Assembly: GCA_029247365.1 (NCBI GenBank)
Contig: JAQWLJ010000073.1
Coordinates: forward strand, 1-64,000
Direction of reading: 5' to 3'
Length of the DNA stretch: 64,000 nt
From: Acidimicrobiales bacterium
GTDB taxonomy: Bacteria > Actinomycetota > Acidimicrobiia > Acidimicrobiales > Aldehydirespiratoraceae
The notes under the pieces were generated by a model. The model did no database searches and had not been told where the DNA came from. It worked only from the letters and a program-made list of their open reading frames with translations. The stretch's first letter is position 1, and each line of letters starts with the position of its first letter. Of this stretch, positions 732 to 37,410 are shown one piece after another. Position numbers and translations under genes: made by a program.

Positions 732-769
732 CCCCGGGTTGTAGTCGTGGGATGTTTTCCACTGAGCAG

Positions 770-853
770 TGTCGGAGGGGGGACTTGAACCCCCACGCCC
801 TTTCGGGCACAGGCACCTTAAGCCTGCGTGTCTGCCAATTCCACCACTCCGAC
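770..853 (-). tRNA. tRNA-Leu with anticodon AAG
   Basis: The reverse complement folds as a class II tRNA. The acceptor stem GTCGGAG pairs with CTCCGAC and the discriminator is A73. The D-stem is GTG/CAC, a long variable arm with CCC/GGG pairs is present, and the T-arm carries GGTTCAAGT. The anticodon stem CAGGC/GCCTG closes the seven-base loop TTAAGGT, placing AAG at positions 34-36. Bacterial Leu tRNAs for CUY codons normally carry GAG; the layout matches E. coli leuU except for G34 to A34. CCA is not encoded (CTG follows the discriminator). Confidence 0.9.
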
Positions 854-1209: not shown

Positions 1210-1434
1210 TCAGAAGATCAGGCCGTAAGCAATCGAACTGAAGCCGAAGACGAGCGCCGCAATAACGGTCATGCGGTCGAGGTTGCGTTCCACGACAGTT
1301 GAGCCAGCCGCCGCTGCACCGGCGCCGCCGCCAAACATGTCGGACAGTCCCCCACCCTTCCCGCTGTGCAATAACACGAGGAAGAGCAGAGCGAGAGCCG
1401 AGACGATGTGAAGGGGTGCGACAATCCAAAGCAC
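1210..1434 (-). CDS. secG: Preprotein translocase subunit SecG
   Basis: SecG is the small accessory subunit of the SecYEG channel in the cytoplasmic membrane. The 74-residue product has the family layout: a first hydrophobic helix (about residues 4-22), a Gly-rich loop with the SGKGGGLSDMFGGG signature, and a second helix (about 54-73). The length is normal. It is the last gene of the run gap-pgk-tpiA-secG, an arrangement widespread in Actinobacteria, and lies 45 nt downstream of tpiA on the same strand, so it is probably co-transcribed. Confidence 0.95.
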   Translation of the reverse strand: MLWIVAPLHIVSALALLFLVLLHSGKGGGLSDMFGGGAGAAAAGSTVVERNLDRMTVIAALVFGFSSIAYGLIF

Positions 1435-1479
1435 AACGGCGAGGTTATCAACTGCAGCGAGCGCTCCGACGCAGCAGCC

Positions 1480-2265
1480 TCAGACCTGATACAGCCGATA
1501 TTTGACGATCCGGGCGAACTCATTGGCATCAAGGCTGGCTCCGCCGACGAGTGCACCGTCGATGTCGGGCTGCGCCATCAGCTCGGGTGCATTCCCCGGC
1601 TTGACCGAACCGCCGTACTGGATCCGGACCGATGCAGCCGCAGCCGCACCGAACATGGCATCAATGCGGGCCCGGACATGCGCGCACATCTGCTGAGCGT
1701 CGACAGGGGTGGCGGTCTCGCCCGTTCCGATCGCCCAGATCGGCTCGTATGCGATCACGAGGTCGCCCACCGCATCCGCCTTGAGGCCAGCAAGGCTGCC
1801 CGTCAACTGCTCGGTGATGCGAGCCTCGGCGTGACCCGTGGAGCGTCCGTCGAGCGTCTCGCCGACACACACGATCGGAGTCATTCCCGCCGCCAAGACG
1901 GCACGGGCCTTGACGTTGACATCGGCATCGCTCTCACCGAAAAGTTCGCGACGCTCCGAGTGCCCCACAATCACATAGGCGACGTTGAGCTTGGCAAGCA
2001 TCGGCGCAGAAACCTCACCGGTAAACGCGCCCCTCTCAGCCTCGTGGGCATTCTGGGCGCCGAGCGAGATCGGGATCTGATCAGCCTGTAGGACCGTCTG
2101 CACCGACCGCAGATCGGTGAAAGGCGGATGTACCGAGACATCGACAGCTTCATAGTCGTCTTTCTCGATCGCATACGCGAGCTTCTGAACCGTCTGGATC
2201 GCTTCCAAGTGATTGTGGTTCATCTTCCAGTTCCCGCTGATCAGCGGGCGACGGTTAGCAGACAT
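1480..2265 (-). CDS. tpiA: Triosephosphate isomerase
   Basis: Interconverts dihydroxyacetone phosphate and glyceraldehyde 3-phosphate in the cytosol. The 261-residue product has the N-terminal GNWKMN motif (catalytic Lys), the HSERRE motif (catalytic His), the AYEPIWAIGTG loop with the catalytic Glu, and the phosphate-binding YGGSVKPGN and GGASL segments, so it should be active. Its start overlaps the end of pgk by 11 nt, which indicates translational coupling in the gap-pgk-tpiA-secG operon. Confidence 0.97.
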   Translation of the reverse strand: MSANRRPLISGNWKMNHNHLEAIQTVQKLAYAIEKDDYEAVDVSVHPPFTDLRSVQTVLQADQIPISLGAQNAHEAERGAFTGEVSAPMLAKLNVAYVIVGHSERRELFGESDADVNVKARAVLAAGMTPIVCVGETLDGRSTGHAEARITEQLTGSLAGLKADAVGDLVIAYEPIWAIGTGETATPVDAQQMCAHVRARIDAMFGAAAAASVRIQYGGSVKPGNAPELMAQPDIDGALVGGASLDANEFARIVKYRLYQV

Positions 2266-3385
2266 TGGGGGCTCCTCTCAGGGCGGCAAGTCCGGGCAGG
2301 TCGCCCTTCTCAATCAGTTCGAGCGTTGCGCCGCCACCGGTGGACACGTGGTCCATATCGCGAACGACCTTGAACTGCTTAGCAGCCGCAGCGCTATCGC
2401 CACCGCCGACGATGGTGAACGCACGGGCATCGGCGAGTGCTGCTGCGATAGCACCAGTGCCGCCGGAGAACCGCGGATCTTCGAACACGCCCATCGGTCC
2501 GTTCCACAGAACTGTGCCAGCCTCGTAGATGATGTCGCCGAATTGCGCCGCCGAACCAGGGCCGATGTCGACACCCATCCAACCATCGGGGATCTCGACA
2601 CCGATTTGGCGAACGTCGCCACCAGCCTCGGGTTCGAAAACCTTGCCACCCGGCCCCATTGCCGTGATGTCGTAGGGCAAATGGATCGGCTTTGGTCCCG
2701 CAAGCAACTCACGGCAGGTGTCAACCATGTCGTCCTCGCACAGGCTCGAGCCGATTGAGTGGCCTTTCGCCTTCAGAAACGTGAAACACATCCCGCCACC
2801 CACAATCAACGAGTCGACCGTGTCGAGCAGTGTTTCGATCACGGCGAGCTTGTCGCTGACCTTGGAACCGCCCATGATCGCCACGAACGGGCGACGCGGG
2901 TTGTTCGCAAGATTGCCAAGTACTTCCACTTCACGATGCAGTAGCCGTCCCGCAGTCGACGGCAGGAACTGCGGCGGGCCAACGATCGACGCGTGCGAAC
3001 GGTGCGAAGCGCCAAACGCGTCATTGACGTAGGCATCGTGGCCGTCGATCAGCTTCTGCACAAAGGTCGGATCGTTGGCGGTCTCACCGGGATCGAATCG
3101 CAGATTGTCAAGCAGGACGACCTCGGGGAGGATCTCGGCAAGTCGGGCCCGGACCGGTTCGACGCTAAACATCGGGTCTGGGGCTCCTGTTGGGCGACCC
3201 AGATGGGTGCAAGCCGTGACCGACGCGCCGGCCTCAAGGAGATAGCGCAGCGTCGGCAACGCAGCTCGAATCCGGAGATCATCAGTGATCTCACCATCGG
3301 CGATGGGAACGTTGAAATCAGCTCGGACCAGAACCGACTTGCCTTCGAGATCGCCGAGATCTTCGAGCCGGGCGAGTTTGTTCAT
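2255..3385 (-). CDS. pgk: Phosphoglycerate kinase
   Basis: Transfers phosphate between 1,3-bisphosphoglycerate and ADP in glycolysis. The 376-residue product begins with the family core (VLVRADFNVP), continues with THLGRP, the hinge region LPSTAGRLLHREV and GGSKVSDKL, and ends with the nucleotide-binding VGGGDSAAA and STGGGATLE segments. It is slightly shorter than the usual 390-400 residues because surface loops are short; no catalytic motif is missing. Its ATG overlaps the gap stop codon (ATGA at 3382-3385), and its 3' end overlaps tpiA. Confidence 0.97.
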   Translation of the reverse strand: MNKLARLEDLGDLEGKSVLVRADFNVPIADGEITDDLRIRAALPTLRYLLEAGASVTACTHLGRPTGAPDPMFSVEPVRARLAEILPEVVLLDNLRFDPGETANDPTFVQKLIDGHDAYVNDAFGASHRSHASIVGPPQFLPSTAGRLLHREVEVLGNLANNPRRPFVAIMGGSKVSDKLAVIETLLDTVDSLIVGGGMCFTFLKAKGHSIGSSLCEDDMVDTCRELLAGPKPIHLPYDITAMGPGGKVFEPEAGGDVRQIGVEIPDGWMGVDIGPGSAAQFGDIIYEAGTVLWNGPMGVFEDPRFSGGTGAIAAALADARAFTIVGGGDSAAAAKQFKVVRDMDHVSTGGGATLELIEKGDLPGLAALRGAPNVC

Positions 3386-26266: not shown

Positions 26267-26280
26267 GTCATCTCCGTTAG

Positions 26281-26363
26281 TACCCGGGGCGGGACTTGAA
26301 CCCGCACGCTCTAGGAGCAGCGGATTTTGAGTCCGCCGTGTCTGCCAATTCCACCACCCGGGC
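26281..26363 (-). tRNA. tRNA-Leu with anticodon CAA
   Basis: Class II tRNA fold on the minus strand. Acceptor GCCCGGG pairs with CCCGGGT (G1-U72 wobble) and the discriminator is A. The D-stem is GTG/CAC, the anticodon stem GCGGA/TCCGC closes loop CTCAAAA (anticodon CAA, reads UUG), the variable arm is long, and the T-loop is TTCAAGT. CCA is not encoded. Confidence 0.95.
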
Positions 26364-37209: not shown

Positions 37210-37410
37210 TGCGTCGTCTGTTACAGCGGGAGAGTTCTCACCTTGAGTGAGGCGCCGAAGGAGCAACCGTCCCGGAACCTCTCAGGCACCCCGACCGCCG
37301 AAACGTGGACGTCTCGGGAGAGTGGTGCTCTGTGCACCCGCCGAAGGGGAAAGCCGGCAACGGCGAAGCTCTCAGGCATCCGGACCGAGCGGGAACCAGC
37401 ACCTCGCCCA
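37210..37410 (+). promoter_or_regulatory. Tandem glycine riboswitch
   Basis: Two glycine aptamers in series. The first (about 37224-37300) has GCGGGAGAG, GGCGCCGAAGGAGCAA and CCTCTCAGGCACC; the second (about 37311-37392) has CTCGGGAGAGT, CCGCCGAAGGGGAAAGCC and GCTCTCAGGCATCCGGACCGAG. These repeated GGGAGA/GCCGAAGG-G/CTCTCAGGC blocks are the conserved core of the family. It ends about 20 nt before the ribosome site of gcvP, so glycine binding should turn on gcvP expression; the mechanism (termination or ribosome access) is not evident. Confidence 0.93.

Follow-up and report, generated by a model that had tools for sequence, protein, structure and literature searches.

A tRNA-Leu(AAG) gene replaces tRNA-Leu(GAG) in an Acidimicrobiales genome and recurs within the class Acidimicrobiia

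The window analyzed here is the whole stretch of 64,000 nucleotides (64 kb) at the start of contig JAQWLJ010000073.1 of an Acidimicrobiales bacterium (assembly GCA_029247365.1). ARAGORN identified two tRNA genes in it, Leu(AAG) and Leu(CAA), both on the minus strand. The first lies behind three reading frames which, from their sequences, we take to be secG, tpiA and pgk. The features of the window are as follows.

769..853, minus strand: tRNA-Leu(AAG) gene with a GAG-type acceptor stem and the loop UUAAGGU (ARAGORN, Rfam, pattern)
817..819, minus strand: anticodon AAG of this tRNA-Leu, A34 being the complement of window base 819 (ARAGORN; G37, at 816, is the last base of the pattern match)
1210..1440, ends approximate, minus strand: secG-like reading frame between tpiA and the tRNA gene (translated frame)
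1480..2265, minus strand: tpiA (triosephosphate isomerase), the syntenic anchor (reading frame)
2255..3385, minus strand: pgk, upstream in the same block, given as context (reading frame)
26280..26363, minus strand: second Leu tRNA, anticodon CAA, given as context (ARAGORN and Rfam)

A glycine riboswitch aptamer was also detected in the window by Rfam at 37305-37397 on the plus strand (66 bits, gathering score 32).

The tRNA-Leu(AAG) gene, at 770-853 in the Rfam search, scored 50.8 bits with RF00005, for a gathering score of 29. On the folded strand, the seven-base loop UUAAGGU, with U32 and U38, sits on the anticodon stem CAGGC/GCCTG, so that A34, A35 and G36 form the sole possible register. 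The original prediction had placed AAG at positions 34-36, which ARAGORN, Rfam and the closed loop confirm; the alternative register that it had named as its possible undoing is excluded by the stem and loop. Its coordinates, 770-853, were correct to one base, and the strand, which it had not given, is minus. The acceptor stem GTCGGAG/CTCCGAC is perfectly paired, the discriminator base is A73, the variable arm is long, and the CCA end is not encoded by the gene. The exact Leu(AAG) pattern matched once in the window and never in 100 dinucleotide-preserving shuffles; given these shuffles and its presence in 57 other genomes of the class, it is not a chance match. The gene is an intact tRNA-Leu, and its AAG assignment is confirmed.

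The complete tRNA set was then considered in the genome (G000; 3,110,708 bases, or 3.11 Mb, in 75 contigs, 98.2% complete). RF00005 gave 43 matches, and ARAGORN called 43 genes on those stretches. The leucine anticodons AAG, CAG, UAG, CAA and UAA are represented by one gene each, and no Leu(GAG) was found by the two methods among the 43 tRNA genes of this draft assembly. Only Leu(AAG) and Arg(ACG) carry A34. As the draft assembly also lacks the Ala-UGC, Asn-GUU and Arg-CCU tRNAs and has just two CAU genes, one or more being missing, the absence of Leu(GAG) was not airtight alone and was therefore tested in relatives. In G003, a relative assembled as a single contig with 45 tRNA matches, the matches of at least 80 bases gave the same five leucine tRNAs (AAG, CAG, UAG, CAA and UAA) and no GAG. 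When 34 genomes were examined together, no GAG tRNA was seen in the 24 that carry AAG. The absence of Leu(GAG), about which the original prediction had asked, is thus found in this genome and agrees with G003, and its concern that the gene might be a pseudogene beside an ordinary GAG gene is answered by an intact gene and no detected Leu(GAG). Leu(AAG) replaces Leu(GAG) in this genome.

Two A+T-rich genomes, G005 (L250-L255) and G009 (L241-L249), read with the same 80-base threshold, showed Leu AAG, UAG, CAA and UAA, and neither CAG nor GAG was found; among the tRNAs found there, the CUN box is served by the AAG and UAG tRNAs only.

The origin of the gene was deduced from its acceptor stem and its neighborhood. 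The Leu(GAG) tRNAs of relatives start with GTCGGAGTGG and end with CTCCGAC, and their GTCGGAG acceptor stem is identical to that of the AAG gene, whereas the Leu(CAG) tRNA of the same genome has the stem GCGCGAG/CTCGCGC. The AAG gene also stands behind tpiA-secG, where relatives keep GAG. TpiA was used to fetch 80 named contigs, and in 19 of them ARAGORN called a Leu tRNA (15 GAG, 4 AAG); 51 of the remaining 61 have at least 1.2 kb behind tpiA with no Leu tRNA in reach, and 10 are cut short. A fifth AAG copy behind tpiA (L106) was recognized by pattern only. The AAG records at this locus come from uncultured Acidimicrobiaceae ERR599092_bin.96 (L102) and NAT108 (L106), from two Actinomycetota bins UFOp-RE (L134, L139) and from Candidatus Microthrix sp. 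UBA814 (L165). These named relatives also point to Acidimicrobiia as the class to which the window belongs. Given the shared acceptor stem and the shared place behind tpiA-secG, the AAG gene is the GAG gene with an altered anticodon arm, orthologous by locus and stem, and not an extra copy. It differs from bacterial tRNA-Leu(GAG) by A at position 34, by U at position 38 (G in the majority of the class's GAG tRNAs) and by a changed anticodon stem.

Over a stretch that starts with the anticodon stem and takes in most of the variable arm, the AAG tRNA equals the CAG tRNA of the same genome except at position 34, and its U38 is the CAG-type base. Both would be expected if gene conversion had joined a GAG-type acceptor and T arm to the anticodon and variable arm of Leu(CAG), and C34 had become A. 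The genus-mates G205 and G271, however, combine the same loop with the stem CTGGC/GCCAG and with a variable arm closer to the GAG type, so the likeness between the AAG and CAG stems may post-date the switch or be due to chance. We regard gene conversion as unlikely; it would in any case be only another route, whose product may still be edited.

In genus g65 (L085-L101, L255), Leu(AAG) lies near tpiA like the GAG-derived genes, but its acceptor stem, GCGCGGG, resembles the CAG type; this suggests that the gene arose by another route.

To describe the distribution of the two tRNAs, exact patterns were matched to 296 genomes of the class. Leu(AAG) was found in 58 of them, in 26 of the 210 high-quality genomes and in 11 of 148 genera, while the matching GAG pattern was found in 174 genomes. 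No genome had both, and 64 had neither, the latter group taking in incomplete genomes as well as tRNAs that the patterns miss. A single genus of about 1 Mb genomes, g65, contributes 37 of the 58 AAG genomes (42 of its genomes are in the sample). The genus studied here has AAG in all three genomes sampled, and its sister genus has GAG in both of its two. In a sample of the phylum, matched with a slightly different, longer pattern, Leu(AAG) occurred in 7 of 396 genomes, with 5 among the 38 of the class and 2 among the 358 outside. Leu(AAG) recurs within Acidimicrobiia.

Seven families (f1, f2, f4, f19, f34, f35 and f36) contain both states. If the families are natural and the genes inherited, the state has changed at least seven times; six is the safer number, because f36 rests on G092, whose tRNA (L259, G092:C7) is identical over 87 bases to those of two f4/g7 genomes (L075 and L077) in dissimilar flanks. 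This identity, together with the draft-bin status of many sampled genomes, could reflect spread by tRNA gene transfer or mis-binned contigs, which would leave fewer separate origins than AAG genera. We consider this distinctly unlikely, since other lineages have distinct tRNA bodies and the AAG gene is close to tpiA in families f1, f2, f12, f29 and f34. In genus g77, AAG (L260, G024:C36) and GAG (G188:C211:3-34) were both observed within one genus, each at a contig end.

According to the portions consulted of a 2026 study (PMC13249217), nearly all bacterial Leu(AAG) genes are in Bacilli, with Mycoplasma and Prochlorococcus named beyond them; another source (PMC8007984) names, in such portions, Leuconostocaceae and some Firmicutes. 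The original prediction that Leu(AAG) is known only in scattered bacteria agrees with the scatter described in PMC13249217, and the implied isolation does not hold within the class, where 11 of 148 genera carry it. The letters "actino" do not occur in the main text of PMC13249217, and an open-access search found no literature on Leu(AAG) in Actinobacteria, or on Acidimicrobiia with inosine.

For decoding, an inosine at position 34 reads U, C and A, whereas an adenosine there reads U well and C poorly; a change from G34 to A34 does not normally work well unless the A is enzymatically converted to inosine. Leucine codons were counted in 43 reading frames of the window, picked by length, so that the frequencies are rough: CUC 0.480, CUG 0.256, CUU 0.139, CUA 0.028, UUG 0.093 and UUA 0.005 (n = 1500). 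The CUC share is about 0.50 in two genus-mates. Compared with the GAG sister genus, no clear codon shift was visible in these rough frequencies (CUC 0.48-0.51 in the genus, 0.38-0.47 in the sister genus), and recoding of leucine codons was rejected on this ground. With CUC at about half of the leucine codons and an unmodified A34 reading C-ending codons poorly, the loss of G34 would be hard to bear without inosine. If the tRNA read CUU only, half of the leucines would depend on a mismatch or on Leu(UAG) superwobbling, and TadA conversion of A34 to inosine in this tRNA is accordingly judged most likely, as a deduction from codon use and tRNA content.

We propose that an ordinary tRNA-Leu(GAG) gene at the ancestral place behind tpiA-secG underwent a change of G34 to A, with its anticodon arm refitted, that TadA would deaminate A34 to inosine, and that the resulting Leu(IAG) would read CUC and CUU, and also CUA, which Leu(UAG) already covers. 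CUC, which is the commonest leucine codon here, would then be read mainly by this tRNA. The original prediction that one inosine-bearing tRNA could read CUC, CUU and CUA is kept for the first two codons; its CUA part is unneeded, Leu(UAG) being present in the genome. Taken as a whole, this proposal, from the switched GAG gene to an edited A34 reading CUC and CUU, is the best explanation and, in our judgment, probably correct. The gene is filed as Leu(AAG) and not as Leu(IAG), since we infer the editing.

The anticodon loops of the class were compared. In the fetched loci, the GAG loops are UUGAGGG (34 occurrences, duplicates included) and UUGAGGU (1); none has A38, nor was A38 seen by eye among the GAG pattern matches listed. 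By contrast, A38 is found in 8 of the 11 AAG genera (g7, g29, g54, g63, g65, g77, g101 and g138), U38 in g1 and in two of the three genomes of g68, and G38 in g19 and in the third g68 genome. A published rule (Pernod 2020, as relayed in parts of PMC8266599 and PMC8007984) links a purine at 34 to the bases at 32 and 38. The loop CUAAGGA, shared by g7, g101, g138, Candidatus Microthrix and both AAG genomes outside the class, is the Arg(ACG) loop of our genome, CUACGGA, with one base changed, at position 35. Selection for recognition by TadA would be expected to make loops converge on the Arg loop in this way, and the genus studied here, with U32 and U38, is an exception to this convergence. Relative to tRNA-Arg(ACG), the usual bacterial TadA substrate, which is edited to ICG, its Leu loop shares A34, G36 and G37 and differs at 32, 35 and 38. 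Similarly, 8 of the 11 AAG genera fit YUAMGRA, the mRNA editing consensus of S. pyogenes, and the loop of our genome, with U38, does not; this fit is a supporting criterion for a TadA-edited Leu(IAG), not a strictly defining one. The mutual exclusion of AAG and GAG and the loops of these eight genera support editing, and for our own tRNA the deduction is weakened by U38 in place of the A of known edited loops.

The consulted parts of PMC11472039 report that the TadA of Streptococcus pyogenes edits Leu(AAG) fully in vivo. Against editing stands the finding that E. coli TadA no longer edited AAG after any of the changes tested at positions 32, 37 and/or 38 (PMC11066159, in part; the strictness of this enzyme is also described in PMC11472039), and only two of the four A34 tRNAs of Oenococcus oeni are edited (PMC11066159). 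A34 could stay unmodified in our tRNA, which would pair with CUU in Watson-Crick fashion; CUC would be read either through a tolerated A-C pair or by Leu(UAG), which is present, through superwobbling, as in some minimal translation systems. The absence from UUAAGGU of the A38 and C32 of known TadA substrates, and the existence of unedited bacterial A34 tRNAs (parts of PMC8266599 and PMC11066159), both lean this way. We nevertheless find an unmodified A34 doubtful: such decoding is usual where CUC is scarce, and here CUC accounts for about half of the leucine codons; the other leucine tRNAs are kept, TadA is intact, and most AAG lineages converge on edited-type loops.

The genome encodes one good TadA of 150 residues (G000:C45:52890-53339) with the catalytic motifs HAE and PCAMC, and a TadA-like match was present in all 50 genomes searched. 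Representatives of 11 AAG and 20 confirmed GAG lineages were compared out of 49 aligned sequences, the other 18 coming from additional members of these genera and from genomes of undetermined state, and including the TadA-like copy of G271. No column separated the two sets beyond label shuffling. The best one, residue 92 of our TadA, where ours has A, is S in 7 of 11 AAG and 2 of 20 GAG sequences (p 0.0033, uncorrected); as 31 of 200 label shuffles did as well, it was rejected as a signal of AAG specificity.

The ancestral place of tadA has the order dnaX, tRNA-Ser(GGA), tadA, tRNA-Ser(CGA), trmL, the flanks presumably encoding DnaX and TrmL, to judge by their sequences. In the sister genus (G075), tadA lies about 1.5 kb from tRNA-Ser(GGA), while in the genus studied here the intact TadA is located away from this place. 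At the ancestral place, two genus-mates instead carry a TadA-like frame:

G271:C27:62535-62960 (L211/L294): TadA-like frame
G205 (L268/L293, L269/L292): TadA-like frame, split over two contig ends

In these frames other residues stand in place of the active-site His and of the first PCxxC cysteine, so that two of the three zinc-binding residues are lost. Over 100 codons, the two differ at 7 first, 5 second and 15 third positions, a mild sign of constraint. No intact TadA was found in G271, which may be an assembly gap, and our genome has the flanks and no TadA-like copy between them. For the origin of the relocated TadA, by duplication or transfer, three groupings gave p-AU values of 0.131, 0.132 and 0.134. 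In eukaryotes, ADAT3 is the partner subunit of the deaminase. A similar role for the dead copy was rejected for our genome, where the flanks are present without it; in addition, the G205 frame breaks at contig ends and G271 lacks a detected intact TadA. The wobble switch might have been paired with a change in the deaminase, the relocated TadA having broadened to accept a U38 Leu loop outside the consensus, as needed for the most-used leucine codon; we put this forward speculatively and think it rather improbable.

Leu(AAG) and its editing have been described in Oenococcus and Streptococcus, and in these Lactobacillales, according to parts of PMC13249217 and PMC11472039, the edited tRNA (IAG) likewise replaces Leu(GAG), the two never occurring together, with Leu(UAG) kept and TadA present, as here. 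In contrast to them, our genome belongs to another phylum, its window has 64% G+C with CUC dominant, its loop has U38 instead of A38, there is no clear codon shift relative to the GAG sister genus, and the editing is inferred. The kind of system is known; what appears new, within the searchable literature, is the lineage, the recurrence in Actinomycetota and the occurrence of the U38 form in a genome rich in CUC.

The repeated rise of Leu(AAG) in one actinomycetotal class provides many natural replicates of the step through which inosine decoding was expanded in eukaryotes; among them are G+C-rich genomes with CUC as the main codon. Lineages with and without A38 offer a direct test of the loop bases that TadA needs and of the tolerance of an unmodified A34.
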